From Streptomyces umbrinus (GTDB taxonomy: Bacteria > Actinomycetota > Actinomycetes > Streptomycetales > Streptomycetaceae), in contig NZ_JAUSZI010000002.1 of NCBI RefSeq assembly GCF_030817415.1, forward strand, positions 2,852,001-2,916,000: a DNA stretch of 64,000 bases. Direction: 5' to 3'. Both the position numbers and the translations under genes were made by a program. Of this stretch, positions 3,341-57,919 are shown piece after piece. Positions within the stretch are counted from its first letter, which is position 1. Each line of letters opens with the position of its first letter. Below the pieces are notes generated by a model. The model was not told the DNA's origin and did no database searches. It worked only from the letters and a program-made list of their open reading frames with translations.

Positions 3341-3555
3341 GTACTGCTCCCCCGTCCGTCCGTCCACCCGACCGACTGCCGGTGCGATTCGGCCAACCTG
3401 CAGCCGTCTCGCACGCATCGTCGATTATCACTCGGGAGAGGACCCTGTCCACGGCCTTTTACCTGACGATCGCCGGGCGCCCACGTCTTCCGTGACGCGC
3501 GTAGAACCAACCGAAGGGCGGCGCCACGGCCAGGGGCCGGGGTGCCGACGCTGCC

Positions 3556-4838: not shown

Positions 4839-4854
4839 CTGGGGAATTCACCAG
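4839..4854. promoter_or_regulatory. PAS-LuxR (PimM-type) operator-like palindrome
   Basis: CTGGGGAATTCACCAG matches the published PimM-family consensus CTVGGGAWWTCCCBAG at 15 of 16 positions. It lies in the divergent gap between GT1 (leftward) and the methyltransferase/mqnD pair (rightward), about 42 bp from the GT1 start and 126 bp from the methyltransferase start. No PAS-LuxR gene is in the window, so the regulator would be encoded elsewhere in the cluster. Confidence 0.6.
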
Positions 4855-4980: not shown

Positions 4981-5628
4981 GTGAGCAACCCAGTAGGTCG
5001 CGCCGACACGTGGGAGCCCCGCCCCCAGCGCAACTCCGGCCTGGCCGTCTTCTCACGGGGATGGCCCGACCAGGCCCCCGACACGATCTGCGGCTGGGGC
5101 TCCAGCGAGCCGCACACCCAGCTCGTCCGCAAGGGGCTCTCGACGATACTCGAAGCGCACCGTGTGACGACGCTGAACGACGCCGGCTGCGGCGATCTGG
5201 CGTGGATGAGCACGCTGGATCTCGGCGGGGTCGACTACATCGGCTACGACGTCCACGAGCGCGCCACCTGGCCCGAGTTGCGGCGGCGCGGCTATCGGCT
5301 GGAGGTCGTCGACATCACGGCCGACGAGCTGCGCCCGGCCGATCTGCTGATCTGCCGTGATGTATTCATCCATCTGCCGAACGACATGATCCTTCCCGCG
5401 CTGGAGCGGTTCCGCCGCTCGGCCCGGCTGCTCCTCACCACCAGCTACACCAGCGATCCCACCCTGGAGCGGGGCGAGTTCTCCAACTTCGAGCGGATGG
5501 ACGGACCAAGCCTCAGACACGCGAAGCTCGACCTTGCGCTGCCGCCCTTCGGTCTCGGGCAGCCGCTGGAGCGCATCCCCGAGAACTCACCCAACAAATA
5601 CCTCGGGCTCTGGGACCTGACCTGCTGA
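4981..5628 (+). CDS. SAM-dependent methyltransferase
   Basis: 215-residue class I methyltransferase-like protein. Motif I is LNDAGCGDLAWM at about residues 63-74, followed by an acidic post-motif (YIGYDVHE) and a motif IV-like stretch (DLLICRDVFIHLP). This is a complete small Rossmann MTase. The GTG at 4981 is taken as start because coding character begins here; an upstream extension to 4690 overlaps GT1 on the other strand. It is followed after 21 bp by the mqnD-like gene, so the two are very likely cotranscribed from the promoter region holding the 4839 operator-like site. That pairing suggests, by inference only, methylation of the naphthalene product or of a sugar hydroxyl. Substrate unknown. 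Confidence 0.75.
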   Translation: MSNPVGRADTWEPRPQRNSGLAVFSRGWPDQAPDTICGWGSSEPHTQLVRKGLSTILEAHRVTTLNDAGCGDLAWMSTLDLGGVDYIGYDVHERATWPELRRRGYRLEVVDITADELRPADLLICRDVFIHLPNDMILPALERFRRSARLLLTTSYTSDPTLERGEFSNFERMDGPSLRHAKLDLALPPFGLGQPLERIPENSPNKYLGLWDLTC

Positions 5629-5649: not shown

Positions 5650-6513
5650 ATGGCAAGCCCTCCGACCCTCGCCCACTCGTCGTGCCCCAATGACACCTTC
5701 GTCTTCCACGCGTGGTCGACGGGGCTGCTGCCCGGGAGGCCCGCGCCCGCGGTCACGATCGCCGACATCGACGTCACCAACTCCCTCGCCGCGCAGGGCA
5801 AGTTGGACGTACTGAAGATCTCGTACGCGGCGCTGCCGTACGTCCTGGACCGCTATGCGCTGCTGCCCTGCGGCGGCGCGCTCGGCCACGGCTGCGGCCC
5901 CCTGCTGCTCACCCGCACCCCGTGCGAGCCTGCCGCCCTGGAGGGCCGCGTGGTCGCGATTCCGACCGAGCGCTCCACGGCGTACCTGCTGTTCCGGCTT
6001 TGGGCACGGGAGGCGCTGGGGGGCGGTGAGGTGCGCACCGTCACGATGCCGTTCCACCGGATCATGCCTGCGGTCCGGGACGGCGAGGTGGACGCGGGCC
6101 TGGTGATCCACGAGGCCCGGTTCACCTTCCACGAGTACGGCCTGCATCGCCTCGTCGACCTCGGAGAGGCCTGGGAGGCTCAGACCGGGCTGCCCATCCC
6201 GCTCGGCGCCATCGTCGCCCGGCGCGACCTGGGTGCCGCGCGGCTCTCGGGGATCACCGAGGCGATCCGGGGTTCCGTCCGGCACGCGTGGGCCGACCCC
6301 GAAGCGTCACGGGACCATGTGCGGGCGCATGCACAGGAGATGGCCCCCGAGGTGCAGAAGCGGCACATCGAGTTGTACGTCAACGAGTACACCGAAGACC
6401 TGGGCCCGCACGGCTACGTGGCGGTCCGCGCATTGCTGGACCGGGCCGCGCGGGCCGGGGCCGTCCCGTCGATCCCGCCCGAGGCCCTGGACCCGGTGGG
6501 CGCCGCCGGGTGA
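5650..6513 (+). CDS. MqnD-like 1,4-dihydroxy-6-naphthoate synthase
   Basis: 287-residue periplasmic-binding-protein-fold enzyme of the MqnD family. In the futalosine menaquinone pathway MqnD converts cyclic dehypoxanthinyl futalosine to 1,4-dihydroxy-6-naphthoate. The family signature SSCPNDTFVFHAW is at residues 8-20, and the ligand-loop pattern DVTNSLAAQGKLDVLKISY, then ALGHGCGPLLLTR, follows. Length is normal and no domain is missing. The start ATG follows AGGAGCG at 6 bp. The other futalosine genes (mqnA, mqnB, mqnC, mqnE) are absent, so this is probably a cluster-bound paralogue that diverts the primary-metabolism intermediate. Context with a methyltransferase and flavin hydroxylases suggests it supplies a naphthoquinone or naphthoate building block. 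A degraded second copy of its 3' end lies at 61405-61590. Confidence 0.88.
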   Translation: MASPPTLAHSSCPNDTFVFHAWSTGLLPGRPAPAVTIADIDVTNSLAAQGKLDVLKISYAALPYVLDRYALLPCGGALGHGCGPLLLTRTPCEPAALEGRVVAIPTERSTAYLLFRLWAREALGGGEVRTVTMPFHRIMPAVRDGEVDAGLVIHEARFTFHEYGLHRLVDLGEAWEAQTGLPIPLGAIVARRDLGAARLSGITEAIRGSVRHAWADPEASRDHVRAHAQEMAPEVQKRHIELYVNEYTEDLGPHGYVAVRALLDRAARAGAVPSIPPEALDPVGAAG

Positions 6514-17589: not shown

Positions 17590-19158
17590 TCAGGGGAGGG
17601 CCGATATGTCCTCCAGCAGGCCATTCAGCAGCTTGGTCATCTCGGTGCGGGTGCGGGCGGCGCCATAGACGTGGAAGTCGGGGCGGACCAGCGCGGCCGG
17701 TGCCCGCACAGCCTCTTTCAGCCAGGTGGTGTAGGTGCCGTCGATATCGACATCGGGAGTCAGGTGGACGATCGAGCCGCCCAGCCTGCCCAGCCGCTCG
17801 GCCAGGGCCGGCTCCACCAGGGTCCGCGGGTCTTCCAGACTGAGCAGGACGAGGTCGCCACCGCACAGCTCACCGGCGTCCGCACGACTGGTGCGTGCCT
17901 GGGGAACGATCCGGCTGTCCCGTCCGGAGAACAGGCTGTCAGCGGCGTGCTGGAACAGCCCGGCCTTCAACGCCTCCTCCCCCGGGCGTGCAAACGCCTC
18001 CGGGTCGCGCGAAGGAGGGTCGTCCGATCCGCGTTCGGCCAGCAGGACGCTGTCCCGGTAGCCGGCGACGGTCGGGTCGACTGTGCCGATGAGCTGGCCC
18101 AGGTTCACCGACATGTCGACGGTTCGCTGGGCGTCGGGCCGGCGCTCGGCCTCGTAGGTGCCGAGCAGTTCCTCGCCGGCCGAGCCGGCGAGGACCAGGT
18201 GCAGCTTCCAGGCCAGGTTCGCCACGTCCCGGATACCGGTGCACATGCCCTGGCCGGCGTGCGGGGGCATCACATGGGCGGCATCGCCTGCGAGGAAGAC
18301 CCGGCCGGAGTCGCTCGAACGCCAGCGGTCGGCGTTGCGTCCCAGGCAGGTGTAGGCGACGTACCGCTGCAGCGTCGCGTTGTCGGGGTTGACCCCGAAG
18401 TGGGTCAGTAGACGCCAGGCGTTTTCCACGGTGTCGAAGTCCTCGAAGGACTGATCGGGCAGCCGCATGAATTCCCAGCGACTGTGGCGCGGTCCGGCCG
18501 AGAGATCGACGCGGGGCTGGACCGGGTCGGCGACCTGCACATTCTGCGAAGGGAATTCCTCGGGGTCGTGCGGCATGACATCGCACGCCATCCAGTCGGC
18601 GGCATAGTCGGAGGCTGAAACCGAGACGCCCAGATGGTTGCGTACAAAGCTGTTGGCTCCGTCGCAACCGACCAGCCAGCGGGCGGAGAGGACCTGCTCG
18701 CCGGCCGCCGCACGGACGGTGAGCCGCGCCGAGTCGTCCTTCTCGGTCAGGCCGACGGCCTCGTAGCCGCGCAGCAAGCGCAGGTTGGACAGCTGCGCGC
18801 CGCGCTCGACCAGCGCGGACTCCAAGCCCGGCTGGTAGAAAGAGATCGCCTCCGGCCAGCGGTACCGGTCGTCCTGGTTCAGTTCGAAGTGCATCAGCGT
18901 CTGCCCGTCGCCGTTGATCACGACGTAATCCTTGGTCGGCTCACAGACCGGGGCGAGCGCGTCGGCGACGCCTATCGTGCCAAGGATGCGGCCGACGTGA
19001 CGGTCGAAGGAGACCGCCCGGGGCAGGTTGTAGGGCTCGACGTACTTCTCGACCACGGTCACACGCCAGCCGCGCTGGGCGAGCATGATCGACAGCACCT
19101 GTCCCACAGGGCCGTAGCCGACTACAAGAACATCCGCGTCCACTGCGTCTTCATTCAC
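17590..19158 (-). CDS. FAD-dependent aromatic hydroxylase (MhpA/PHBH type)
   Basis: 522-residue class A flavoprotein monooxygenase. The FAD-binding motif is VLVVGYGPVGQVLSIML near the N-terminus; the NADPH/FAD dual motif includes LVGCDGANSFVRNHLG; and the second FAD motif is VFLAGDAAHVMPPHAGQG followed by GIRDVANLAWKL, characteristic of 3-(3-hydroxyphenyl)propionate hydroxylase-like enzymes. The C-terminal thioredoxin-like domain of this group is present. It is expected to hydroxylate a phenolic ring; in this cluster the MqnD-derived naphthalene is a plausible substrate (inference). The GTG at 19158 is chosen because the flavin motif starts 9 residues later, but its ribosome site is weak and an upstream start to 19206 is possible. 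Confidence 0.87.
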   Translation of the reverse strand: MNEDAVDADVLVVGYGPVGQVLSIMLAQRGWRVTVVEKYVEPYNLPRAVSFDRHVGRILGTIGVADALAPVCEPTKDYVVINGDGQTLMHFELNQDDRYRWPEAISFYQPGLESALVERGAQLSNLRLLRGYEAVGLTEKDDSARLTVRAAAGEQVLSARWLVGCDGANSFVRNHLGVSVSASDYAADWMACDVMPHDPEEFPSQNVQVADPVQPRVDLSAGPRHSRWEFMRLPDQSFEDFDTVENAWRLLTHFGVNPDNATLQRYVAYTCLGRNADRWRSSDSGRVFLAGDAAHVMPPHAGQGMCTGIRDVANLAWKLHLVLAGSAGEELLGTYEAERRPDAQRTVDMSVNLGQLIGTVDPTVAGYRDSVLLAERGSDDPPSRDPEAFARPGEEALKAGLFQHAADSLFSGRDSRIVPQARTSRADAGELCGGDLVLLSLEDPRTLVEPALAERLGRLGGSIVHLTPDVDIDGTYTTWLKEAVRAPAALVRPDFHVYGAARTRTEMTKLLNGLLEDISALP

Positions 19159-19285
19159 GGCCCGACCGTAGTTCAGTGGGGTGCGTGGCAGGTCCGGCTC
19201 CCGCACGGGTCAGGGACAAGAACCAGAATGAGCGGCCGCGGCTTGACTGCTCCGGCCTCGGGCCCAACCCGTGGTGTCCGGAGTG

Positions 19286-20224
19286 TCAGCTGCGGTCGTA
19301 CCTGTCCGCCATCGTATGGAAGACCTTCTTGGGTTCCCAGCGGGTTTCGTCGAGCATGCGGACCACACCGTAGGAGGCGATGTCACGCTCCCCGGGCTTG
19401 TCGTAGTTGGCGAAGGAGAACCACAGGGCGGTGTCCACTCCCTCTTCCTCGAAGACCGTCAGCAGCTCGGTGAGATAGCGGACCTGCTCATCCTCGTCGG
19501 GCAGTGCCCCCGGTGGCGGATCCCAGGCCATGCCCCCGAGGTCACTTGCACCGCGGTAGGCGCAGGTGCCGTATTCGGTGACGGCGACTGGCTTGCCGTG
19601 GTGGAAGGACTCGCGCAGATGGGTACGGAAGGTATCGGTGTTGTGGGCGGCACGGTAGGCGTCGATGCTGACGAGGTCGAAGGTGGCCCAGTCGACCGAC
19701 TCCCAAGGGCCGGACGCATAGGTGACCTGCCCTCCGAAGTGTGCGCGCACGGTGGCGGCGGCTTCGGCGAGGAGGCTGTTGACACGCTCCGATATCCGGC
19801 CGAGGTCGGACCACCATGCCGTGTCGTACGCCATGGTGTAGATGCGGCGACCGAAGGTGTCGCCGGGGACGAAGCCGCCGCAGAAGACGCTGATCTCGCA
19901 CCCCGTCACGAACACCACCTCGGCGCCGGTCCGCCGTACGGCTTCGGCACGCCGAGCGCAGTCCGCAAAGAAGGGCAGTAGCTGCTCAGCCGGGAGGTCG
20001 ACGGGGAAGGGTGCGAACCAGACCTCGAGGCCGGCCTCCGCGGCGTATCGGGCTGCCACGCTCAGGCGTTCGGGTTCGCGCCCTGAGATACGTACGACGT
20101 CGCAGTGCAGTTCGCCGGCGATCACCGCCATTTCGCGCCGGACCGCTTCCGGGCTGAAGACCTTCCGGGTGAGCTGCGCTCCGGGGAGGAACCCGGTGTC
20201 GTAGTTGATGCCGCGTGCGCGCAC
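19286..20224 (-). CDS. Glycoside-hydrolase-like TIM-barrel protein
   Basis: 312-residue protein of a type found in many actinomycetes and often loosely annotated as an abortive-infection or hypothetical protein. It starts VRARGINYDTGFLPG and has the look of a clan GH-A (beta/alpha)8 barrel: VFVTGCEISVFCGG resembles the acid/base strand and PVAVTEYGTCAYRG the nucleophile strand with its Glu. There is no signal peptide, so it should be cytoplasmic. GTG start with AAGGGG at 9 bp. It lies between two flavin monooxygenases on the same strand, but the strong hairpin at 20322 separates it from the upstream one. Role in the pathway unknown; a glycosidase acting on a sugar-protected intermediate is one possibility. 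Confidence 0.7.
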   Translation of the reverse strand: MRARGINYDTGFLPGAQLTRKVFSPEAVRREMAVIAGELHCDVVRISGREPERLSVAARYAAEAGLEVWFAPFPVDLPAEQLLPFFADCARRAEAVRRTGAEVVFVTGCEISVFCGGFVPGDTFGRRIYTMAYDTAWWSDLGRISERVNSLLAEAAATVRAHFGGQVTYASGPWESVDWATFDLVSIDAYRAAHNTDTFRTHLRESFHHGKPVAVTEYGTCAYRGASDLGGMAWDPPPGALPDEDEQVRYLTELLTVFEEEGVDTALWFSFANYDKPGERDIASYGVVRMLDETRWEPKKVFHTMADRYDRS

Positions 20225-20386: not shown

Positions 20387-21988
20387 TCATTGGTTCGGAC
20401 GCGTACGGCCGGTGGGAGTCGCGCTGGAGTCGCTGCCGCCGAACCAGTCGGCCAGCGCGCGACGGAGACCGTCCCGGACCTGGCCGGACGGCTCGTCGTG
20501 GGCGGCCGCCCACGCGACGTAGCCGTCGGGTCGGACCAGCAGCGCGGCCGCGGGCGGCTGCGGGCAACTGGCGGCAACCACGTCGACCCGGTCCTTCCAG
20601 TCCGTCGCCGCTTCCGCCAGGCACGGTTCCCCGGCGAGGTCGAGCAGGATCGGCCGGGCGGCACGCATGAGCTCGGCGAGCCGTGTCGGGCCGCCGCCGG
20701 TTTCCAGGGCGAGGTCCGGGGCGAACCGCCCGGCGAGAGGGTGTGCCGCTGTCGTCTCGTAGCGGACGTCGTCGCCGGCCAGCAAGTCGGCGATGCGCCG
20801 GATGTTGTCTGTGGAGTGCAGAAGCTCGCCGAAGAGTTCGCGCAGGGCGGTCACCTCCGGTCCGGGGACCATGAGCGCTGTCTGGGCCTGGGTGTGCATG
20901 AAGACGCGCCGCCCGGCCGCGTATCGCTCGGCGTGGTAACTGTCCAGCAGGCCGGGCGGCGCCCAGCCGTGGATCTGTGCGGCCAGTTTCCAGCCGAGGT
21001 TGGCGGCGTCCTGGAGGCCCAGATTGAGTCCCGGCCCACCGACGGCGGAGTGGACGTGCGCAGAGTCCCCCGCGAGAAACACCCGGCCGCTGCGGTAGCG
21101 CTCCGCCAGCCGGGTGCTGCGGCCGACGAGGCGGCGCAGCATGTGCGGGCCGGGCCCGGACGGCGGGGAGAGGGGCACGTCGGTGCCGAGGACGCGACGC
21201 ACGCTGTCGCGCATGTCGTCGAGCGCCAAGGGCGCCTCCTCGCCCTCCGGCGGGGCGCCCCATTCGAGGGTCAGCAGGCGGTGGTTGCCGTCCGGCAGGG
21301 CCGCGAAGGCGAAGATGCCGTGCGAGGTGCGGGTGAAGGTGAACACCGGGCTGATCCGGCCGTACCCGGGGACGTCGAGCTCGCCGGTGTCCGGGTCCAG
21401 CATCGACGCGGGCAGTGTGGCGTACGCGGCCCGGGAGACCAGGTCGCAGCCGGTCTCTCCCGCGAAGGCGATACCGGCCAGCTTGCGGACGGTGCTTTTC
21501 CCGCCGTCGCAGCCGACGAGGTGGCGGGCGCGCAACTCGTAGGTGCCGTCGGCGTACTGGACCTGGGCGGTCACCCGGTCTTCGGTTTGCTGAAAGTCTG
21601 TCAACTCGTGCCCGCGGCGGATTTCCACGCCGAGCTCGCGGGCGCGTTCCGTCAGCACCTGCTCGATGCGCTGCTGCGTCACTGGCAGGACAGTCATCGG
21701 GTTGGTTTCCAGCACGCCCAGGTTCAGCGGGATGGCGCCGAAGAGGTAGCCCGGGACCGGCTGGGGCACGTCGGCGACGCTGCCGAACCGCTCGTACAGG
21801 CCACGGTGGTCGAGGAACCGGACCACCTGGCCGACCAGGCCGTTGGCCTTGATCTCCGAGCTGTGGTCGGGCAGCCGCTCGAGGACGACCGGCCGCAGCC
21901 CGGTCATGCCCAGCTCACATGCCAGCAACAGCCCGACGGGGCCGCCGCCGACGATGACGACATCGGCGGTCTCTGTCTCCATGGCCAT
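20387..21988 (-). CDS. FAD-dependent monooxygenase (PgaE/RdmE-like)
   Basis: 533-residue class A flavoprotein hydroxylase of the type that acts on polyketide and aromatic antibiotics. FAD-binding motif VVIVGGGPVGLLLACELGM, DG motif HLVGCDGGKSTVRKLAG, and GD motif VFLAGDSAHVHSAVGGPGLN with NLGLQDAANLGWKL. The C-terminal thioredoxin-like domain (ILLDLAGEPCLAEAATDWKD) is complete. GAGGAG lies 7 bp before the ATG at 21988, fixing the start. Expected to hydroxylate, epoxidise or oxidatively decarboxylate an aromatic substrate; oxidative decarboxylation of a hydroxynaphthoate to a quinone would fit the MqnD paralogue but is inferred only. It diverges from the aryl-ligase gene across 206 bp that holds a near-perfect PAS-LuxR operator. 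Confidence 0.88.
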   Translation of the reverse strand: MAMETETADVVIVGGGPVGLLLACELGMTGLRPVVLERLPDHSSEIKANGLVGQVVRFLDHRGLYERFGSVADVPQPVPGYLFGAIPLNLGVLETNPMTVLPVTQQRIEQVLTERARELGVEIRRGHELTDFQQTEDRVTAQVQYADGTYELRARHLVGCDGGKSTVRKLAGIAFAGETGCDLVSRAAYATLPASMLDPDTGELDVPGYGRISPVFTFTRTSHGIFAFAALPDGNHRLLTLEWGAPPEGEEAPLALDDMRDSVRRVLGTDVPLSPPSGPGPHMLRRLVGRSTRLAERYRSGRVFLAGDSAHVHSAVGGPGLNLGLQDAANLGWKLAAQIHGWAPPGLLDSYHAERYAAGRRVFMHTQAQTALMVPGPEVTALRELFGELLHSTDNIRRIADLLAGDDVRYETTAAHPLAGRFAPDLALETGGGPTRLAELMRAARPILLDLAGEPCLAEAATDWKDRVDVVAASCPQPPAAALLVRPDGYVAWAAAHDEPSGQVRDGLRRALADWFGGSDSSATPTGRTRPNQ

Positions 21989-22154
21989 CACGGATCTCCT
22001 CGAAAGGGGCGTTCCAGGGGCAAGCACAGGTGCACACGGCGAGTGGTTCACGCGAGGGGATGATGCAGGACTCGGACCCGCGTTCCCGCTGGAACGTCGT
22101 TGCGCACCCACACTAGGCACGCCGTCCCGGGGCCTCGTCCGGCAGCGCGGCGCA

Positions 22155-22170
22155 CTAGGGAATTCCCTAT
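22155..22170. promoter_or_regulatory. Near-perfect PAS-LuxR (PimM-type) operator
   Basis: CTAGGGAATTCCCTAT fits CTVGGGAWWTCCCBAG at 15 of 16 positions and contains the perfect palindrome TAGGGAATTCCCTA. It lies 24 bp before the ATG of the aryl-ligase gene, at the -35 position of a promoter whose -10 is probably GATACT around 22183. That spacing would give a leaderless or nearly leaderless mRNA. It should drive the 22195-31346 operon and perhaps the divergent monooxygenase. Confidence 0.7.
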
Positions 22171-22194: not shown

Positions 22195-23280
22195 ATGACG
22201 GTGACGATGAGCACGGAAGTGTCGAGGTCGCTGACCGATGGTTGGCTGGCCCAGGACCTCGACGCGTGGACGCGTCGCGTGCTGCGGCGGCATTTCGACC
22301 CCGAACACGGATCCCCTTACTGGCTCAAGCGCCGCACCGAGCTCGACTTCGACCCGCTGGGTCTCACCGGCTACGAGGACCTGGCCGCGTTCGGCCACTT
22401 CGATCTCACCGCCCTCCGGGACCTCGACCCGGCCGATCTCGTCCCGACCGCCGTCCCGCGTCCCCTCGGCGGCCGCGTCTGGGAATCCGGTGGCACCACC
22501 GGCAGGCCTTCCCGCGTCTTCTACACCCGGGACATGTCTGCGCACTGGGCCGCCTGGCGTCTCCACGGCTGGCGGACGTCCGGGTTCCGCCCTGGCGCCA
22601 CCTGGATCGACGCCTGTCCCTCCGGGCCGCACATCGTCGGCGAAGAGACCGACTACCTCGCCGACATGTGCGGGTCCACCGTGTACTCCATCGACCTCGA
22701 CACACGGTGGATCAAGCAACTCATCCGCGGTGGACGGCTGGTCGAGATGGAGGAGTACGTCGATCACGTCGTCGAGCAGATCACCGACATCCTCGACACC
22801 TGCTCCGTCGACTACCTGCGCAGTACTCCTGCCACGGTGCACGCCCTCATCAACCGGCGCCCCGATCTGATGGCCGACCTTTCGGGGGTCTATCTCGGCG
22901 GTACCCAGTTCACCTCCGACGCCTACCGCAGGTTCTCCGAGGCCATGCCCGGCGGCATCATCGGCACCACCTACGGCAACACCCTCGGCTGCGCCAATGG
23001 CATCGCCTCGCCCGACGGGGGCGCCACTCTCCCGTACGTACCGAACTATCCCCACATCACCATGTCCGTGGTCGACAAGGCCGACCCCAGCCGTGTCGTG
23101 GACTACGACGAGGTGGGCCGGGTGCGGCTGACCGTGCTGCACGAGGACCTGTTCCTGCCCAACATCCTCGAAAGGGACCAGGCGATCCGCTTCCGGACCT
23201 CCGAGCAGTGGCCGTGCGACGGCGTGGCCAATGTGCAGCCGCTCCAGATCAGCTCGGAGACGCCCGAGGGTCTGTACTGA
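22195..23280 (+). CDS. PaaK-like aryl-acid adenylating enzyme
   Basis: 361-residue member of the adenylate-forming superfamily, related to phenylacetate-CoA ligase-like proteins found in phenazine and aurachin clusters. The phosphate-binding loop appears as [18 protein letters not shown] (residues about 97-114) and an A5-like motif as [13 protein letters not shown]. It is shorter than PaaK (about 430 residues) and lacks the mobile C-terminal domain with the catalytic Lys, so it may only adenylate or may need a partner. No ribosome site is visible and the putative TSS coincides with the ATG, suggesting leaderless translation. It is 47 bp upstream of the CoA-ligase PKS and in the same operon, so it probably activates an aromatic acid for loading or transfer. 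Confidence 0.72.
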
Positions 23281-23327
23281 ACCCCGCCCGACCCATGGAA
23301 CAGCGACCAGAGAGGCGGGGGCAGCAG

Positions 23328-26300
23328 ATGCTGCGCACCGAACTCATCAGGCCCCTTCACGAACTGCTGCCGGCCCATGCCGAACGTCTCGGCAGCAAGA
23401 TCGCGTTCCGTGACGCGCGGCGAGCCGTCAGCTACGCCGAACTCGACCGGCGCACCCGTCGTCTCGCCGGTCATCTTGCCCATCTGCGCCTGGGCCGCGG
23501 TGAGACAGCCGCGCTGCTGCTCGGCAACTGCCTGGAGATGGTGGAGAGTTACCTCGCCATCGCGCGGGCCGGCGCCGTGGGCGCGCCGCTCAACCCGCAC
23601 GCCACCGACGACGAGCTGGAGCACTTGCTCGTCGACAGCGGCGCGGTGGTGCTGATCACCGACCCCACGCACCTGGAGCAGGTGCTGCGGCTGAGCGCCG
23701 GGCACCCGCGGCTCCGGGTAGTGGTGACCGGGGACGGGGCGGCGCCCCAGGGCGTCGAGCTGTTCGACGCTCTGGTCGGCAGCGAGCCGCCGGTGCCCGC
23801 CCGGGACGACGCAGGTCTGGATGACGTCGCGTGGATGCTGTACACCTCCGGCACCACCGGCAAGCCCAAGGGCGTGCTGTCCACCCACCGTATGTCCCTG
23901 TGGGGCGTGGCCGCCTGCTACTCGCCCGTGCTCGGCCTCGACGAGGCGGACCGGGTGCTGTGGCCGCTGCCGCTGTCCCACACCGTGGCGCACAACCTGT
24001 GCGTGCTCGGTGTCGTCGCCGTCGGCGCCACCGCGCATATCGTGGACGGCCTGGCCGCTGACGAGGTGGTCGCCGCGCTGAGTGAGGACCGGACGACCTT
24101 CTTCTGCGCCGTTCCCACGGTCTACCAGCAGTTGCTCCGAACAGCCGGGGACACCGGCCTGGGCACCCCCGACCTGAGGGTCTGCATGGTCGCCGGCGCC
24201 GCCTGCCCGGCCGGGCTGCACGAGGAGTTCGAAGACACCTTCGGTGTACGGCTCCTGGACAGCTACGGCAGCACCGAGACGGGCGGCCCCATAGCAGCCA
24301 ACGCCCCCACCGGGCCGCGTGTCCCCGGCTCCTGCGGACTGCCCGTCCCCGGCCTCACCCTCCGTCTGCTCGACTCGTCCACCGGTGAGGAGGCGCCCTC
24401 CGGCGCCGAGGGAGAGGCCTGGGTCAAGAGCCCGGCCGTGATGCTCGGTTACCACGGCCATCCCGCGGCCAGCGCCGAGGTGCTGCGCGACGGCTGGTAC
24501 CGCACCGGCGACCTGGCCCGCATCGACGACGACGGCTTCCTGACCATCACCGGACGGGTCAAGGAGCTGATCATCCGCGGCGGGGAGAACATCCACCCCG
24601 GCGAGGTCGAGGCGGTCATCGCCCCGCTGCCCGGCGTCGCAGAGGTCGCCGTGGCGGGCAAGCCTCACCCGCTGCTGGGCGAGATCCCGGCCGCGTTCGT
24701 GGTTCCCGGCCCCGGGGGCTTCGACGCCGGACAGCTCATCGACGCCTGCCGTGCGCAGCTGTCGTACTACAAGGTGCCCCACGAGGTATGGGAGGTGGAC
24801 CGACTCCCGCGCACCGCACTCGGCAAAGTCATGCGGCCGGCATTGGCGAACGCACCGGCGCGGCTGGTGCTGTCGCGTGCGGTGGAGAGCGGTGACCCGG
24901 AGGAAGGCGATGCCGAGCAGTGGGCGCAACGGCTCAGCGAGGCGCCGGCGGACGGACGCGATGAGGTGCTGCTCGATCTGGTCCGGGGTGAAGTCGGCGC
25001 CGTGCTCGGGCAGTCGGCGGCGGTCGCGGCGGATGTCGCCTTCCGGGACCTGGGGTTCGACTCAGGGATGGCCGTGCGGCTGCGTGACCGGTTCGTCAAA
25101 GCCACCGGTCTGCGGCTCCCGGCGACGCTCGTCTACGACTACTCGACGCCGGTGGCCGTCGCGGCGCATCTCGGGGCCGAGCTCTCGGGCGGGACGGCCA
25201 CAACGGCCACGCATGACGCGGGCGCCGCGGGCACGGGCACGGACGACGCGGGCACGGCGGACAGCGCGATCGCCATCGTGGGAATCGCCTGCCGCTTCCC
25301 CGGCGGAGTCACCTCGCCGGAGGGGCTGTGGCAGCTGCTGGACGAGGAATCGGACGCCGTGGGTGCCTTCCCCGACGACCGGGGCTGGGACCTGACGCGG
25401 CTCTTCGACGAGGACACGGGGCAGGCGGGCACCGGCTACGCCCGCACCGGGGGTTTCCTCGACGGTGCCGACCGCTTCGACGCCGCGTTCTTCGGCATTA
25501 GCCCACGCGAGGCTTTGGCCATGGATCCGCAGCAGCGGCTGCTGCTGGAGTGCGCCTGGGAAGCGTGTGAGCGCGCGGGCATCGCTCCGCCCTCCTTGAA
25601 GGGCAGCCGCACCGGCGTCTTCATCGGAGCCATGGCCGGCGAATACGGCGCGCGGCTGCTGGGCCGCCCGGCACCCGAGGGCCTGGAGGGCTACCTCGGC
25701 AATGGCAGCGCGGGCAGCGTCGCCTCCGGTCGTCTCGCGTACGCCCTCGGCCTTGAGGGTCCCGCGTTGACGGTGGACACGGCCTGCTCGTCGTCGCTGG
25801 TGGCGCTGCATCTCGCGGCACGGTCGCTGCGGGAGGGGGAGTGCTCGATGGCCTTGGCCGGCGGGGTGACGGTGATGTCCACCCCCTCGCCGTTCATCGA
25901 GTTCGGCCGCCAGCAGGCGCTGTCCCTCAGTGGGCGGTGCAGCCCGTTCTCGGACAAGGCCGACGGGACCACGTTCGGCGAAGGCGCGGGACTGCTGGTG
26001 CTGGAACGGCTGTCGGACGCGCGGCGCAACGGCCACCGGGTGTGGGCCGTGGTGAAGGGCTCCGCCGTGAACCAGGACGGCGCCTCCAACGGTCTGACCG
26101 CGCCGAGCGGCCCCGCGCAGCAGCGGGTGATCCGGCAGGCCCTGGCAGATGCCCGCCTCTCGGCAGCGGATGTGGACGTGGTGGAGGCGCACGGTACGGG
26201 CACCACGCTCGGCGACCCGATCGAGGCGCAGGCGATCATCGCCACGTATGGGCAGGAGCGCACGGAGGACCAGCCCTTGTGGCTGGGCACGGTCAAGTCG

Positions 26301-29300
26301 AACATCGGGCACGCCCAGGCCGCGGCCGGTGTCGCGGGCGTCATCAAAATGGTGATGTCGATGCGCCATGAGGTGCTGCCGAGAACGCTGCACGTGGACG
26401 ATGCGTCGCCGCTGGTGGACTGGTCGGCAGGCAACGTCGAGCTGCTGACGGACGCCCGGCCGTGGCCCACGACGGGCCGACGGCCCCGGCGGGCCGGCGT
26501 TTCGGCGTTCGGCGCGAGCGGCACCAACGCGCACCTGATCCTGGAACAGGCGCCGCCCGAGGAGCCTGTGGAGAATCCGGCCGGCCAGGGGCCCGAGCCC
26601 ACCGGGTCAGCGGCCGTGGTGCCGTGGGTGGTGTCGGGACGGAGCGCCACGGCGCTGCGGGACCAGGCGGCGGCGCTCTCGCCGCTGGCCGATGCCGGTG
26701 AGGTCGACGCGGTGAACGTGGGATGGTCGCTGGTGACCGGCCGGGCACGGTTCGAGCATCGTGCCGTGGTGATCGGGGACTTCACCGCTGGTCTGAAGGC
26801 GCTGGCCGGGGGTGAACGGGCGGATCATGTGGTCGCCGGAGTGGCGGCGGAAACCGTCAGGAGCGGTAGGCCGGTATTCGTCTTTCCCGGGCAGGGCGCG
26901 CAGTGGGCGGGAATGGGCGTGGCGCTGGCCGACGCCTCTCCGGTGTTCGCGGCGCGGCTGGCCGAGTGCGAGACGGCGTTGTCGGAGTTCGTGGACTGGT
27001 CGCTGACGGATGTTCTGCGCGGTGCCCCCGGTGCGCCGCCGCTGGAGCGGGTCGATGTCGTCCAGCCCGCGTCGTTCGCCGTGATGGTGTCGCTGACCGC
27101 GCTGTGGCGCTCCTTTGGGGTGGAGCCGGCCGCGGTGGTGGGCCATTCACAGGGCGAGATCGTCGCCGCCTGCGTGGCCGGAGTGCTGTCGCTGGAGGAT
27201 GCGGCGCGGGTGGTGTGCCTGCGCAGCAGGGCGATAGCGGAGCTGGCCGGACCCGGGGCCATGGCGTTGGTGACGTTGCAGGTCGAGCGGGTGGAGGAGC
27301 TGCTCACGGAGGGCGTGTCGGTGGCCGCGGTCAACGGCCCGTCCCAGGTGGTGGTCTCTGGTGAAGTAGCCGCTGTGGAAGGGCTGTTGGCGGAGTGTGA
27401 TCAGCGGGGTGTGCGAGCGCGGCGGATCGCGGTCGACTACGCCTCGCACTCCGCGGCGATGGACGTACTCGCCGAGCGGCTGACGGCTGACCTGGCCGGG
27501 ATCGCGCCCCGGCCGGGCCGGGTGCCGCTGGTGTCCACGGTGACCGGGGAGCCGACCGACCCGCTGACGATGGACGCCGGTTACTGGCTGAGGAATCTGC
27601 GGCAGCCGGTGCGGTTCGCCGACGCCGTGAGCACGTTGACCGAACAAGGACATACCGCGTTCGTCGAGGTCTCCTCGCACCCGGTGCTGACGGCCGCCCT
27701 CACCGATGTGGCGCAGGACGCGGCGGTGGTGACCGGCTCGCTGCGGCGTGACGACGGCGGGTGGGACCGCTTCCTGACGAGCGTCGGCGAAGCTTGGGTC
27801 CGGGGTGTGACCGTGGAGTGGACAGCCGCCTTCGACGGCCTCCGTCCCCGGACCGTGGACCTGCCGACATACCCCTTCCAGCGGCAACGGCACTGGCTGC
27901 ATGTCGGTCCCTCATCCGGCGACCCGGCCTCCTGGGGCCAGCGCTCGGCCGCCCACCCGCTGCTCGGCGCGGTCGTGCGTCTCGCGGACGGCGACGGCGT
28001 GCTCCTGACCGGCGTGCTCTCGCCCCGGTCCCAGCCCTGGCTCGCCGACCACGTCGTGGGCGGATCCGTCCTCTTCCCCGGCACCGGTTTCGTGGAGGTG
28101 GCGCTGCGCTCGGGCGACGAGGTCGGCATGGACGTCCTCGACGACCTCGTCATCGAGACACCGCTGGTGCTGCCGGAGTCCGACACCGGCGAGGTGCGGG
28201 TCCAGGTCCGCGTGGGAGAACCGGACGGGACAGGGCGCCGGCCCTTCGGTGTCCACGCCTGCGAGGGCGGGGCCGACGACGACCCGATGTGGACCCGGCA
28301 CGCCACGGGATTCCTCACCACGGCCACGGCAGGCGCCATGACTCCCGCCACGGACCCGTCCGGCCCCGAGGACGCGCCAGCCTGGCCGCCCGCCGACGCC
28401 GAACCCGTCGAACTGGACGGAATCTACGAGCAGTTGGCCGACGGTGGCCTCGGCTACGGTCCCGCGTTCCAGGGGCTGCGCGCCATGTGGCGGCGGAAGG
28501 CCGAGGTGTTCGCCGAGGTCGCGCTGCCGACCGACGCCGGCCGGGACAAGGGGTTCGGGATCCATCCGGCCCTGCTGGACGCCTGTCTGCACCCCGACGT
28601 CATCGAGGCGAGCGCCGGGCAGTTGCGGCTGCCGTTCGCCTGGAGCGGGGTGCGGCTGCACTCGACCGGTGCCTCCCTCCTGCGGGTGCGGCTGCGCCGT
28701 GGCGCCGACGGCGAGGTGGCCCTCTCGGCGACCGACGAGTCCGGGGCGCCCGTGGTGACGGTCGGAGCGCTCAAGACCCGCCCGGCGCAACCGCGGATCG
28801 CGCAGTCCGGCATCGCGCGCGACGCCCTGCTGCGGGTCGAATGGAGCCCTCTGCCCGCCCTGGACCGGAACACGGGCGGCCATCGCTGGGCCGTGGTGGG
28901 GCATGGAGTCTCCGCCGGGACCTACCCGGACGTGGCGGCTCTGGCCGCGGCGGTGGCCGCGGGCGACGCCGTACCCGACTACGTGCTGGCGCCGTGCACG
29001 CAGGCGCCGCGGATCCCCCTGGCCGAGGCGGTGCGCCGCGCCACCGGCGAGGCTCTGCGACTGATCCAGGAGTGGCTGGCCGAGGAGAGCCTGTCCTCGT
29101 CACGACTGGTGCTCGCCACCCGGGGCGCGGTGGTCGGCGCGGGCGTCGGGAAGGTGACCGACCCGGTGCACGCGGCCGTGTGGGGGCTGGCCCGCTCGGC
29201 CCAGTCGGAGCACCCGGGCCGGATCGTGCTGGCGGACTTCGACAACGCCTCCTCGCAGGAGGACTGGCGGATGCTGGCGGCGGCCATGGAAGCGGCCGGG

Positions 29301-31346
29301 CCCGGCGAGGAACAGTTCGCGCTGCGGGCGGGCACCGTGCTCACACCCCGTCTGACCCGGGCGGGGGCCGGGGCCCCCATCCCACCGCCGCCCCGGCTCG
29401 ACCCCGAGGGCGTGGTGCTGATCACCGGCGGCACGGGGATGATCGGCCAGGTCATCGCCCGGCATCTGGTCGTGGAACACGGCGCCCGGCATGTGCTGCT
29501 GGCGAGCCGCACCGGCGACGCGGGCGAACTGCCGGAGGAGCTGGCCGTCTGGGACGCCGAGGTGACGGCCGCCGCCTGCGATGTGGCCGACCGCCCGTCC
29601 CTCGCCACGCTGCTGAAGAGTCTGGACCGGCCCTTGACGGCGGTGATCCATGCCGCCGGCGTACTGGACGACGGCGTGATCACGTCGCTCACGCCGCAAC
29701 GGCTGGCCGCGACGCTGCGGCCCAAGGTCGACGCGGCGGCGCACCTGGCCGAGCTGGTTCTTGCCCGGGGCGACGAGCCCGCCGCGTTCGTCACCTTCTC
29801 CTCCCTGGCCGGGGTCCTCGGCGGATCCGGGCAGGCCAACTACGCGGCGGCCAACGCCTTCCTGGATGCGCTGATGCAGCAGCGCCGCGGGCAGGGTCTG
29901 CCGGGAGTTTCGGTGGCCTGGGGCCTGTGGGAGCAGCCGGACGACGGCCCGGGGCTCGCGGCCGGCCTGGCCACGACCGACCGCCGCCGGCTCACCGAGG
30001 GCGCCGTGCGTCCGCTCACCCCGGAGCAGGGCGCGGCGTTGTTCGACGCGGCGCTCGGCCTGGCCGGAACGCACGACGACGCCGTACTCGTGGCCGCCCG
30101 CTTCGACCGCAGCCGCCTGCGCGACACCTCGTCGGTTCTCCTGCGGGGTCTGGCGCGCGGTCCGGCGCGGCGCGCCGCCACGGCCGGCGCGGACCGGACG
30201 TCACTGCGCCGGCGCCTGGCAGGCCGCTCGCCGGCCGAACAGCACGAGGTGCTCGTCGAGTTGGTGCGCCAGGAGGTCGCCGCCGTGCTGGGCTTCACCG
30301 ACCCCGATTCGGTCGCCCTCTCCCAGCCTCTGGCCGAGGCCGGATTCGACTCCCTGACCGCCGTGGAACTGCGCAACCGGCTGGGCGAGGCCACCGCGCT
30401 GCGGCTGCCCACCACGCTGGTCTTCGAGCACCCCACGGCCGTCGCGCTCGCCGGTCACCTGGCCGAGCGACTCGCCGACGCCAGTGACCACAGCGACGGG
30501 GCCGCCGCCACGGACGGGGCGGACGAGGGCCCGGATGTCTTCGGTGCGCTGTTCCAGGAGGCATGCGCGGACGGCCGTACCGATGAGGCCTTCGCCTTCC
30601 TCCACAGCGCCGCCCGGCTCCGGCCCCGGGGCATCGCTCCGGTCGAGCCGGTTCGGCTCGGCTCGGGCGGCTCCGGGCCCGCGCTGGTGTGCGTGAGCTC
30701 CCATGTGGCGCTGGGCGGTGCGCACGAATACGCCCGCTTCGCCTCGTCGTTCCGCGGGCAGCGCCCCGTGTGGGCCCTGCCCAACCCCGGATTCGACAAG
30801 TCCGCGCCGCTGCCGCCGACCGTACAGGCGCTGGTCGAAGCGCACGCGGAGCGCGCTCTGGAGTGCGCGGACGGGGGCCCGTTCGTGCTGGTCGGGTCCT
30901 CCTCCGGCGGGGTGATCGCGCACGCGGTGGCCGGTCTGCTGGAGGCAGTCGGCACTCCCCCGGCCGCGGTGGTCCTGCTGGACAGCTACGCGCCCGCCAT
31001 CCTGAACTCCTCGCTCGCCGCGACCGCGTTCCGCGACGTGCTCGTCGAAGGGCTGCACGAGCGGCAGAGCGCGTTCGCACGGCTCGACTTCACCCGGCTG
31101 ACGGCGATGAGCTGGTACGGCGACCTGTTCGCGGAATGGAACGCGGAGCCGCTGGGGGTGCCCGTGCTGCTGGTGCGGGCCTCGGAGCCGCTCTCCCCCG
31201 CGCTCGCGGGAGAGGGCGGGCAGACGGCGTGGCGGACGGCGCACACCACGCTGGACGTGGCGGGGAACCACTTCACCTTGATGGAGACCCACGTGGAGAC
31301 CACGGCACGGGCGGTGCGGGAGTGGCTGGGGACGGTGGCGGGATGA
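23328..31346 (+). CDS. Type I PKS: CoA ligase-ACP-KS-AT-DH-KR-ACP-TE
   Basis: 2672-residue monomodular polyketide synthase with its own starter and release domains. CoA ligase about 1-510 ([12 protein letters not shown], then [20 protein letters not shown] and catalytic Lys in ALGKVMRP); ACP with Ser in [11 protein letters not shown] near 575; KS about 644-1070 with active Cys in [12 protein letters not shown] near 818; AT with GHSQG near 1272 and YASH near 1370, the methylmalonyl pattern; DH about 1540-1820 with [10 protein letters not shown] and [11 protein letters not shown] with [10 protein letters not shown] near 2028 and LDD, the B-type motif; ACP near 2339; TE with GSSSGG near 2523 and GNHFTLM as catalytic His. 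No ER. Expected product: an activated acid extended by one methylmalonyl unit, reduced and dehydrated, then released. The ATG at 23328 follows a GGGGG site; an ATG at 23295 is weaker. Confidence 0.93.
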
Positions 31347-31407
31347 CTCCCCACCGCGCCGTCCCCGCCACCCACCATGCCCGGCCGCGCTGACGCTCGC
31401 CTTCTCC

Positions 31408-32382
31408 CTACCGGCGCAGTGAGATCCCGTGCTCGAAGACCGCCGCGACCGCCCGCGAGAGCGCGCCCGGGCTGTCGACGATGACAACGGGGAACGGGTA
31501 GTGCATCGCGTCCAAGCTGGGTGAGGGGCCCACGATCAGCCCCAGCCTGGCTCCATGGCGCTCCATTTCCTGGGTCAGATGCACCAGGCTGATGGGCGCG
31601 ACGACGTTGTTGGTGAACATCTCGCGCACCTCGTCGGCGCGGGTGAGGGTCTTCTGTTCCAAGGACGAGCAGAGGGTCAGCGTGGGGTCGGTGAACGGCA
31701 TCGCCGTGATATGCCCGCGGGTCACCTCCTGGGCTCCCGCGCGCAGCGGGCTGTGCTCCGCCACATCGGTGCCCTCGGTGACGCTGACCAGGCCGCCGGT
31801 CTCGGCGCTGAGCTTCTCCAGCGCGACCCGGTAGCCGCTGAGCATGGCGATCCGCACTCTGCGGTCCTTGTCCCAGCCGAAGTCACAGCTCAGATAGACG
31901 CCGTCACGGTCGGCGCAGAGGTCCGCCGGGTTGTCGTCCGGACCCAGGTAGGCGGAGGCAAGGGCCTCTTCCCGCTCCGGCTCCCCCTCCGTCTGCGGCT
32001 GGAGCGGCCGGAGCTCACCGCGCATCAACAGCCCCATGAGCTCCCGGCGTTCGCACGCCCCGGCGATGCACGAGGCGACCATGCCGCCCAGGCTCATGCC
32101 GCCGGCCATGTGCGGACGCAGCCCCTTCTCCGCGAGCAGGTCCTGGATGCCGAGCTGGGCCGCGGCCAGCCCGACGGGCACCGCGAGCCGCCGGACCTCG
32201 TCGTCGTAGTCCCCGTTCTGTCGCACAAGGGCCTCGACATCGAGTCCGGTCCACGCCGAAGCCTGCGCGAACGATTCGCGCACCGCCGCGTACTGGTCGT
32301 AGAACTCGATGACCCCGCCCGGTTCATAGCGGAACTGATTCGTACCAAATATGGATGCCAGAGCCACGTATGCCACCTCCAT
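31408..32382 (-). CDS. Discrete acyltransferase (FabD-like)
   Basis: 324-residue stand-alone AT-fold protein. The nucleophile elbow is GGMSLGGMVASCIAGA (GxSxG; the usual His before Ser is Met here) at about residues 91-106, and a downstream VTRGHITAMPF resembles the region of the second catalytic residue. The FabD N-terminal GQG motif is absent (SIFGTNQFRYEPGG instead). It could load an unusual acyl group onto an ACP, act as an acyl hydrolase for stalled chains, or transfer the product of the neighbouring CoA-ligase PKS. It converges on that PKS with a 61 bp gap and diverges from the alpha/beta hydrolase. The start ATG at 32382 has only a weak ribosome site. Confidence 0.75.
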   Translation of the reverse strand: MEVAYVALASIFGTNQFRYEPGGVIEFYDQYAAVRESFAQASAWTGLDVEALVRQNGDYDDEVRRLAVPVGLAAAQLGIQDLLAEKGLRPHMAGGMSLGGMVASCIAGACERRELMGLLMRGELRPLQPQTEGEPEREEALASAYLGPDDNPADLCADRDGVYLSCDFGWDKDRRVRIAMLSGYRVALEKLSAETGGLVSVTEGTDVAEHSPLRAGAQEVTRGHITAMPFTDPTLTLCSSLEQKTLTRADEVREMFTNNVVAPISLVHLTQEMERHGARLGLIVGPSPSLDAMHYPFPVVIVDSPGALSRAVAAVFEHGISLRR

Positions 32383-32450
32383 GACAAGGCAACGCTAGGC
32401 GAGGAAGTACCAGGCGTGTTCCCAGATTTGACGTGGGTAGGATCATGGTC

Positions 32451-33629
32451 ATGCCGATGGGATACGTGGTAACAACCGCGCTCTTGGTCTGGTGCACTTT
32501 CTTCAGCGTTGTCGCGCCGCGCCGGCCCCAACCGCTGGCGACCATGAGCTTCTGGTTCGGCATGATCCTCAACGAGCTGCCGTTCCTGGGCATGTTCGCC
32601 GTGGTGGCCTCCACCGCACTGGCCTTTGCCCAAGGCGATCTGGAGTCGTCGGCCAGCAAGGTGACGGCTGCGGTGGCCCTCGCCGCCATTCCCGGGATGG
32701 CCGTGTGCGCCTGGCGGGGCCTGCGGACGGACCAGGTGGTCGAGCGCGCCCTCGAACAGGGGCTTGGGACCGGCTGGCGGGATCATGTGCACACACCGCT
32801 GCGCCGCCGCCGGCCCTGGGTCCGTATCCTGCTGCTGCCGATCCTGATGCGGCAGCGCGGCGTGCAGCGGACCCCCAACATCCGCTACGGGGACGCCGGC
32901 CGCCGGAATCTGCTCGATGTCTACCGACGCCGCGACACACCGCAGAACGCGCCGGTCCTGATCTACTTCCACGGCGGCGGGTACACCGGCGGAGCGAAGA
33001 ACCGCGAGGCACGGCCCCTGCTCTACCGGCTCGCCGACCAGGGGTGGGTGTGCATCAGCGCCAACTACCGGCTGCAGCCAGAGACCACTTTCCCCGGCCA
33101 CCAGATCGACGCCAAGAAGGCCATCGCCTGGGTCCGCGAGCACGCGCCCGAGTACGGCGCCGATCCGTCGAGGCTGTTCGTAGCGGGCAGCTCCGCCGGC
33201 TCCAACCTGGCGGCTCTGTGCGCGCTCACGCCGAACGACCCGGTGTTCCAGCCCGGATTCGAGTCGGCCGACACCGCGGTCACCGCGGCGATCTGCCTCT
33301 ACGGCTACTACGGCCACTTCTTCGGCGAGGAGCCCGAGGTGACGCCGTCCCCGTACCAACCGCATGAGTACCTCAACCCTGGTGCGCCACCGTTCCTCAT
33401 CGCCCACGGCACCAAGGACGCGCTGGCGCCCGTCGAGGGCGCCCGGTACTTCGTCGACCGGCTGCGCCGTGTCTCGGAGAGCACCGTGGTCTACGCCGAA
33501 CTGCCCGGCGGACAGCACGCGTTCGACCTGTTCCACTCGGCGCGCTTCGAGGCGGTCGTGGACGGCGTCGAAGCCTTCGCCGCCTGGGTGCCGGTTTCTC
33601 CGCAGCGCACTCCCGACTCAGCGCGTTAG
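32451..33629 (+). CDS. Membrane-anchored alpha/beta hydrolase (HSL/esterase family)
   Basis: 392-residue hydrolase. The first about 85 residues contain three hydrophobic segments (YVVTTALLVWCTFFSVV; FWFGMILNELPFLGMFAVVA; KVTAAVALAAIPGMAVCAW), followed by a cytoplasmic or periplasmic catalytic domain. Oxyanion-hole motif HGGGYTGGAK, nucleophile elbow FVAGSSAGSNLAAL, Asp in GTKDALAPVEG and His in PGGQHAFDLFHSAR complete the triad. AGGA lies 8 bp before the ATG at 32451. An esterase for removing a protective or activating acyl group from an exported precursor is conceivable, but nothing in the sequence proves it belongs to the pathway. Confidence 0.82.
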   Translation: MPMGYVVTTALLVWCTFFSVVAPRRPQPLATMSFWFGMILNELPFLGMFAVVASTALAFAQGDLESSASKVTAAVALAAIPGMAVCAWRGLRTDQVVERALEQGLGTGWRDHVHTPLRRRRPWVRILLLPILMRQRGVQRTPNIRYGDAGRRNLLDVYRRRDTPQNAPVLIYFHGGGYTGGAKNREARPLLYRLADQGWVCISANYRLQPETTFPGHQIDAKKAIAWVREHAPEYGADPSRLFVAGSSAGSNLAALCALTPNDPVFQPGFESADTAVTAAICLYGYYGHFFGEEPEVTPSPYQPHEYLNPGAPPFLIAHGTKDALAPVEGARYFVDRLRRVSESTVVYAELPGGQHAFDLFHSARFEAVVDGVEAFAAWVPVSPQRTPDSAR

Positions 33630-57676: not shown

Positions 57677-57694
57677 GTGGAGTGCTGCTCCCTG

Positions 57695-57919
57695 CTATTC
57701 CGCGATCTTGGTGAACCCGGTCCAGCGGAAGGTCGTCGGCTGCCCGCCGACACCCTCGCGCGGGGCGTCGAACGGCTCGGGGTACTGATAGCCGCAGTAG
57801 TGCTCGACCTCAGTCCTCTGCCGCACCGCGACCGCGGGAACGCGCGCCGACTCCGCGAGCCGCGCGCGCACGTCCGGACCGTCCGCGCGCACCACCTCGG
57901 GTCCAGTGATCAGCGGCAT
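57695..57919 (-). CDS. Small protein of unknown function upstream of the initiator PKS
   Basis: 74-residue ORF starting MPLITGPEVVRADGPDVRAR and ending in an aromatic-rich tail (TTFRWTGFTKIAE). GGGAG lies 8 bp before the ATG at 57917-57919 and its stop is 18 bp before the PKS start, so it looks like the first gene of the leftward PKS operon. Third-position GC is high, as expected for coding DNA. No family was recognised. It is too small to be a carrier protein (no GxDS motif). It could be a small accessory protein or the remnant of a larger gene. Confidence 0.6.
   Translation of the reverse strand: MPLITGPEVVRADGPDVRARLAESARVPAVAVRQRTEVEHYCGYQYPEPFDAPREGVGGQPTTFRWTGFTKIAE

Follow-up and report, generated by a model that had tools for sequence, protein, structure and literature searches.

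A 64,000-nucleotide stretch of the Streptomyces umbrinus genome, referred to here as the window, carries a one-module polyketide synthase (PKS) gene. The PKS and its neighbours probably constitute the branch that makes the naphthoquinone (NQ) side acid in a glycosylated macrolide cluster of the PM100117 kind, in a reworked version which employs different helper genes. Futalosine-pathway genes in the cluster, an operator shared with them and the precedent of the gon cluster (PM100117/PM100118) together point to a naphthoic starter and a side-acid role. An initial annotation of the stretch had suggested a separate module making a side acid for the macrolide, with naphthoic acid as one guess for its substrate, and these three lines of evidence agree with it. 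Relatives were searched for in a sample of 392 Streptomyces genomes. Labels beginning with G and L designate genomes and loci, respectively, G000 being the present genome. Coordinates of the features are collected in Table 1.

Domain organization of the PKS

The PKS is 2672 aa long. Pfam recognizes AMP-binding, KS, AT (acyltransferase), DH and KR domains, two PP-binding stretches and a thioesterase (TE), and own-domain profiles give the order CAL-ACP-KS-AT-DH-KR-ACP-TE, CAL being the starter-activating domain. All active-site motifs checked are intact, including the CAL motifs, YAAAN, GFDS in both ACPs and GSSSG in the TE. YASH, present in the AT, is a methylmalonyl-type motif, and LDD, present in the KR, is a B-type motif. 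The domains and their motifs thus bear out the earlier description of a PKS with its own starter activation, one methylmalonyl module with KR and DH, and its own TE: it is a real and well-delimited side-acid module.

Futalosine genes and the gon precedent

The MqnD-type protein of the window is 64% identical to the other copy of this genome (in L023) and 67% identical to an annotated 1,4-dihydroxy-6-naphthoate synthase. The right flank encodes MqnC and MqnE, both above the NCBIfam cut-offs, and an MqnA-type protein with 62% identity to the genome's copy in L024. Among these genes lies a 100-aa gene at the position of an annotated ferredoxin in S. angustmyceticus. With its second copies of MqnA, C, D and E, the cluster duplicates the greater part of the futalosine pathway leading to 1,4-dihydroxy-6-naphthoate. 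PF02621 has four matches in this genome, and at least four in 14 of the 392 genomes. A 3-hydroxybenzoate starter made by an MqnA-type enzyme, as in a hygromycin-A-like aryl methylacrylate, was considered and dropped because the PDB match and the genome copies identify the window protein as MqnD, hence naphthoate. The methyltransferase-like gene, which has only a weak Pfam match and a counterpart of 75.7% identity in G367, adjoins mqnD and is a candidate ring methylase.

The gon cluster of Streptomyces caniferus includes gonP8, gonM1-M4, gonSL, gonS1, gonS2 and gonMT (PMC4763440). GonP8 is described there with the domains CAL, ACP, KS, ATp, KR, DH and ACP, and its proposed role is to extend methyl-dihydroxynaphthoate by one propionate. 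According to the same account, the NQ-bearing product is abolished without gonP8, gonMT, gonSL, gonS1 or gonS2 and found in traces without gonM4. A gonE mutant is reported to accumulate the NQ chromophore together with its precursor lacking the propionate (PMC5103430). The gon authors named langkolide and GT35 as related compounds, stated that the elongation mechanism was not deducible from their data and left the transfer step open (PMC4763440).

Both clusters contain second copies of mqnA, C, D and E, several glycosyltransferases, LuxR-family regulators, and a PKS with CAL, ACP, KS, methylmalonyl AT, KR, DH and ACP, which accompanies a large macrolide PKS with KSQ loading. They differ in several respects. 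The window PKS carries a TE, which does not figure in the published description of GonP8. EhpF (see below), a discrete AT, two FAD hydroxylases, and FdtA-type 3,4-ketoisomerase and aminotransferase genes are found in the window cluster and distinguish it from gon, and its main chain has 18 extension modules against the 20 reported for gon. The KSIII proteins of the gonS1/gonS2 type are missing: the seven PF08541 matches of the genome lie at best about 236 kb before the window, and three gon-type KSIIIs have no match in the 184 kb around it (tblastn, E 0.01). Among the called genes of the same region, no GonSL-like CAL-DH protein was found, the CAL-DH queries of seven relatives matching the window PKS best. 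Two of the three CAL candidates scored in this genome match at E 1e-80, namely the window PKS and one orphan, which is not part of the cluster. Judged from the gene content, what is new relative to gon is therefore the fused TE, the absence of the KSIII and GonSL partners and the presence of EhpF and the AT.

To the initial annotation, precisely this set was not known from any described cluster. This does not apply to its central component, since GonP8 has, by its published description, the same domains without TE (PMC4763440) and the full domain order occurs in orphan PKSs. The combination of EhpF, a TE-fused CAL module and the AT was not found in searches of the open-licence PMC literature. 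For PKS clusters with EhpF, arylcarboxylate reductase clusters and caniferolide/langkolide clusters, these searches yielded no precedent closer than the two gon papers.

A shared PAS-LuxR-type operator

The 184 kb were scanned with a published 16-letter PAS-LuxR consensus (PMC9774167). At up to two mismatches only two sites were found, both with a single mismatch. One, CTAGGGAATTCCCTAT at 22155-22170, is the near-perfect operator that the initial annotation had placed ahead of a PaaK-like gene (the EhpF gene below), and is also divergent to the FAD monooxygenase gene. The other, at 4839-4854, precedes the methyltransferase and mqnD genes and is also divergent to a glycosyltransferase gene. Twenty simple shuffles of the 184 kb gave no site at up to one mismatch and a mean of 1.1 sites with two.

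Of 15 related loci, 13 have a site of this kind (two mismatches or fewer) next to mqn or EhpF genes. Such sites are present in eight of the nine loci with mqn genes in view (G367, G357, G168, G013, G110, G225, G252 and L182; G144 is the ninth) and before EhpF in five of the six window-type stretches with no mqn genes in view (G154, L180, L183, L184 and L185; L001 is the sixth). Altogether EhpF is preceded by a site in G154, G367, L180, L182, L183, L184 and L185 and not in L001, G357 or G144. In G367 a two-mismatch site occupies the same place as 4839-4854. One extra site each occurs elsewhere in G367, L180 and L182. None was detected in ten loci of AT relatives with no extra mqn genes known (nine genome loci and the S. 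clavuligerus plasmid locus L181). The related cluster L183 encodes a regulator with PAS_4 and GerE domains.

The EhpF-family protein and the discrete AT

The protein encoded just before the PKS matches the EhpF structures 3l2k and 3hgu at E 1.3e-48, and its predicted model superposes on them with a TM-score of 0.82-0.86. It has the fold, the length and the missing C-terminal domain of EhpF, which belongs to a phenazine antibiotic pathway; the two proteins are only about 30% identical, and the setting here is that of a macrolide. Since the protein is full length for its family, the "truncated PaaK-like enzyme" of the initial annotation is indeed PaaK-like, although distantly, but it is not truncated: the short form is a trait of the EhpF family and not gene damage.

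The stand-alone AT noted after the PKS is present at 31408-32382 on the minus strand, 3' of the PKS gene and convergent to it. The protein is a member of a conserved family, all 46 full-length rows of which have both Ser97 and His210. Loss of the catalytic histidine was ruled out, His210 being kept in the alignment with FabD and with the family. The fold and the Ser-His pair are common to FabD/MCAT and VinK, the latter being among the fold matches. However, these enzymes have GHSxG where the family has GMSLG or GLSLG, and the FabD-type arginine, R121 in the window AT, is variable across the family. A degenerate second copy of the AT gene, in two frames and lacking its middle part, is located in the right flank (G000:C2:2992217-2992964).

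When the best five candidates per genome were scored, 17 of the 392 genomes had an AT-family match at E < 1e-30, and 14 of these 17 also had an EhpF match of at least 54% identity. In G295 EhpF occurs as fragments, while G018 and G218 carry the AT without such a match. By their coordinates, EhpF and the AT are adjacent and on the same strand in nine distant genomes of the 14. The contexts include modular PKSs (G096, G157, G350 and G066), a type II PKS with deoxysugar genes (G274) and a cluster with many glycosyltransferases (G239), where the pair (L096, 13799-15019) is near a methylaspartate ammonia-lyase gene. In G096, G157, G350 and G295, all loci without extra mqn genes, the PKS next to the AT opens with a complete or partial loading-type KS-AT-ACP; EhpF is intact in three of them. 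This could mean a priming role, which does not fit the window pair, the loading gene being about 18 kb away. No description of an EhpF-AT gene pair in Streptomyces antibiotic clusters was found in the open-licence PMC literature.

Relatives and origin of the TE-bearing form

The 14 genomes with at least four PF02621 matches comprise five of the AT/EhpF type (G000, G154, G357, G367 and G144, with AT and EhpF identities of at least 61% and 73%) and seven others that were compared with them; G287 and G374 were left out of the comparison. L002 and G154 apparently represent one genome and were counted once, and G144, whose PKS frames are broken, was used for gene presence only. All seven others encode a GonSL-like CAL-DH protein and six of them a neighbour of 339-348 aa, which is a KSIII by Pfam in both genomes tested (G013 and G252). 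Four (G013, G110, G225 and G168) have a two-module CAL-PKS without TE, and G301 and G238 lie on short contigs. No strong AT or EhpF match was obtained in these seven genomes among the best five candidates per genome.

The four two-module clusters resemble that of the window in their futalosine genes, related CAL and KS domains and an operator-like site between mqnD and mqnE; they are unlike it in the two-module PKS without TE, the GonSL-like protein and the KSIII-size neighbour. In a quick KS tree the window KS groups with the first-module KSs of these gon-type CAL-PKSs (SH-aLRT 86). Strains NBC_00342 and ITFR-6, which share an identical piece, retain a 42-codon KSIII remnant between the PKS and the AT, on the PKS strand. 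In a tblastn search of one locus, 38 of its residues align with the C-terminal end of gon-type KSIIIs at 50-53% identity (E about 2e-5 to 9e-5), and it sits where the four two-module clusters have their KSIII-size gene. A KSIII-bearing ancestor is therefore the most likely origin of the TE-bearing form.

The domain order of the window PKS and its YASH motif recur in four further window-type PKSs, each taken from an annotated plasmid record. Large linear Streptomyces plasmids carry close relatives of the EhpF-PKS-AT set (L180, L183, L184 and L185), and the strains in which the three genes are plasmid-borne include Streptomyces sp. NBC_00342, Mut1 and ITFR-6. In G367 the interval between EhpF and the AT is about 85 bp and holds no PKS, and the genome search gave no CAL of the window family (best match 38%). 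MqnA, C, D and E are kept in this genome, as are the methyltransferase, one of the hydroxylases and the operator. Since it is in about 100 contigs, the PKS could be lost in an assembly gap. In S. angustmyceticus EhpF is the first gene of the mqnE operon, under the operator, and the AT is beside mqn genes. No CAL close to that of the window was found in the 65 kb examined of this strain, the nearest CAL-like matches having 27-30% identity. About 31 kb from its mqn genes and beside aminodeoxychorismate-synthase genes, S. angustmyceticus carries a two-protein PKS (L186, 2410-12731; ACP-KS-AT-DH-ACP and KS-AT-DH-KR-ACP-TE) which begins with an ACP and lacks a CAL.

Proposed pathway

MqnA, MqnE, MqnC and MqnD of the cluster would supply 1,4-dihydroxy-6-naphthoate, as their orthology suggests, the MqnB step being assumed to be provided from elsewhere. 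The methyltransferase and the FAD hydroxylases may then modify and oxidize the ring. The CAL would load the aryl acid, a substrate suggested by the context, on the first ACP, and the KS would add one methylmalonyl unit. The B-type KR and the DH are expected to yield an (E)-2-methyl-3-aryl-acryloyl thioester on the second ACP, which the fused TE might release as the acid or transfer to a sugar hydroxyl. In the least certain step, EhpF and the discrete AT may replace KSIII and GonSL in activating or moving the acyl group. A more specific version of this step, rather unlikely in our view, is that the two proteins form an acylation unit in which the AT serine replaces the missing C-terminal domain: EhpF would adenylate the naphthoic (or another aryl) acid, and the AT would accept the acyl group from the adenylate and pass it to an ACP or to a hydroxyl of a sugar. 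Together with the TE-fused module, the unit would have replaced the handling of the NQ acid by KSIII in one branch of these clusters.

Evidence against the assignment and alternative explanations

Several observations weigh against the assignment to an NQ branch. No mqn genes were found in the examined stretches of the closest PKS relatives (L001, L180, L183, L184, L185 and G154), and the AT of another close relative, G357, is of the malonyl type. The distant genomes with EhpF and AT have no extra PF02621 genes; the pair is thus not specific to naphthoate. As to the operator, dinucleotide shuffles of the window gave a mean of 0.27 matches at up to two mismatches, and two matches in 2 of 100 shuffles. 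Single two-mismatch sites in relatives are individually weak, because about one per 184 kb is expected from the shuffles, and no site within two mismatches exists anywhere in the L001 or G144 stretches. No PAS family was detected up to E 0.1 in the LuxR-type regulator of the window that might read the operator. Finally, a TE tree did not resolve the placement of the window TE. By BLAST this domain is 47-53% identical to macrolide main-chain TEs versus 35-42% to those of orphan PKSs; its origin is left unclaimed because the tree fails to resolve this signal.

The best-surviving alternative, a minor but serious possibility, concerns the helper proteins: EhpF could activate a carboxylate for reduction and the AT could be an editing or extender-supplying malonyl transacylase, neither of them moving an aryl group. 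The automatic database name of EhpF (arylcarboxylate reductase), the FabD fold of the AT with its R121, not conserved in the family, and the EhpF-AT pairs outside mqn-rich genomes are in line with it. It accounts less well for EhpF heading the mqnE operon in S. angustmyceticus and for EhpF staying with the AT in G367.

The domain order of the window PKS alone is not novel. It was found in all four orphan Streptomyces PKSs checked, one of which is in this genome (L151, G000:C2:2757027-2765549, about 87 kb before the window and with no cluster around it). At least about 50 of the CAL matches listed fall within open frames of comparable length (2600-2900 aa), the architecture having been checked in the four. 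The PKS might accordingly be an independent orphan enzyme producing a small acid of its own, located by chance inside the macrolide cluster. This appears improbable: although they share domain order and size with the window PKS, the four orphans have no conserved neighbours, their ATs are of the malonyl type and their KSs form a separate branch (SH-aLRT 99; the corresponding split in the CAL tree is weak, with a bootstrap of 41), while the window PKS keeps the same neighbours in relatives and its operator is common to mqnD and EhpF-PKS.

Iterative use of the single module, giving an aryl polyene or a longer aryl chain, had also been entertained in the initial annotation. Such a process would suit an aryl-type ligase followed by a lone module that contains KR and DH. 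However, no result supported it, the four gon-type relatives encode two separate modules and the window KS groups with KSs of modular proteins, which makes it distinctly improbable. Evidence that the PKS closes the main chain as its final module and has an inactive CAL, the contrary case raised in the initial annotation, was looked for and not found. This reading is scarcely credible despite the 52% identity of the terminal TE to the main-chain TE. The CAL motifs are intact, and the main chain has its own TE, a KSQ loading domain and, by domain count, 18 extension modules, and is encoded on the opposite strand. Pfam recognizes a docking domain in one main-chain protein and none in the window PKS. 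The start of the loading KSQ is in a different frame at 57300-57700 of the window (minus strand), the gene being broken here or in the assembly.

Other genes of the window

The proposed NQ branch is accompanied by sugar genes: five glycosyltransferase-like genes are present in the window, and the FdtA-type 3,4-ketoisomerase and aminotransferase genes of the cluster point to an amino sugar. The FAD hydroxylase at 17590-19206 is 77-86% identical to proteins of L001, G154, G367 and L183. The FAD monooxygenase at 20387-21991 has no match at E 1e-25 in the examined stretches of G367, G357 and G144. In L180 a gene annotated as a quinone oxidoreductase (wrbA, FMN_red by Pfam; 30361-30984) lies between EhpF and the FAD monooxygenase, which fits quinone chemistry. 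An alpha/beta hydrolase is annotated next to the AT in L180, L183, L184 and L185, as in the window. Relatives of one or both of the genes at 60471-60890 (DUF6069) and 60894-61379 (161 aa) adjoin mqnE in G357, G144 and G367, and a DUF6069 gene immediately precedes the AT in S. angustmyceticus.

Table 1. Features of the window and the evidence on which they were assigned
Feature	Position	Strand	Evidence
LuxR-type regulator, candidate operator reader	2621-3418	-	GerE, 56 bits
PAS-LuxR-type operator	4839-4854	+	1 mismatch; between glycosyltransferase and methyltransferase-MqnD genes
Methyltransferase-like protein, candidate ring methylase	4981-5628	+	PF08242, weak, 20.9 bits (cut-off 30)
MqnD-type 1,4-dihydroxy-6-naphthoate synthase paralogue	5650-6513	+	PF02621, 254 bits; PDB 2czl/3a3u, E 2.2e-67
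FAD hydroxylase, 3-HPP/3-hydroxycinnamate hydroxylase type	17590-19206	-	NF004829, 517 bits (cut-off 390)
Conserved neighbour, weak GH113 match below cut-off	19286-20224	-	85-86% in L001, G154, G367
FAD monooxygenase divergent from EhpF	20387-21991	-	FAD_binding_3, 244 bits; 84% in L001, G154
PAS-LuxR-type operator CTAGGGAATTCCCTAT	22155-22170	+	1 mismatch to 16-letter consensus; 40 bp before EhpF
EhpF-family adenylate-forming protein without C-terminal domain	22195-23280	+	Sequence and predicted fold
One-module PKS, proposed NQ-acid synthase	23328-31346	+	Pfam, own-domain profiles, motifs
CAL (starter-activating) domain of the PKS	23373-24842	+	
AT domain of the PKS, methylmalonyl-type motif YASH	26874-27809	+	
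Fused TE domain of the PKS	30702-31325	+	
Discrete FabD-fold acyltransferase, Ser97/His210 kept	31408-32382	-	Alignment, fold match
Alpha/beta hydrolase (esterase-like) beside the AT	32433-33629	+	Matched in L001, G154, G357, G144
End of main macrolide chain (KR-ACP-TE), gene extends past the window	62318-64000	-	Pfam, domain profiles

Significance

The assembly and attachment of the NQ acid in PM100117-type antitumour macrolides were left open by the gon authors, and the window offers a small system for them that can be tested in vitro. Natural comparisons are available in the two-module form, in G367 with no PKS and in the KSIII remnant. The analysis also draws attention to the EhpF-AT gene pair, which recurs in other Streptomyces antibiotic clusters.

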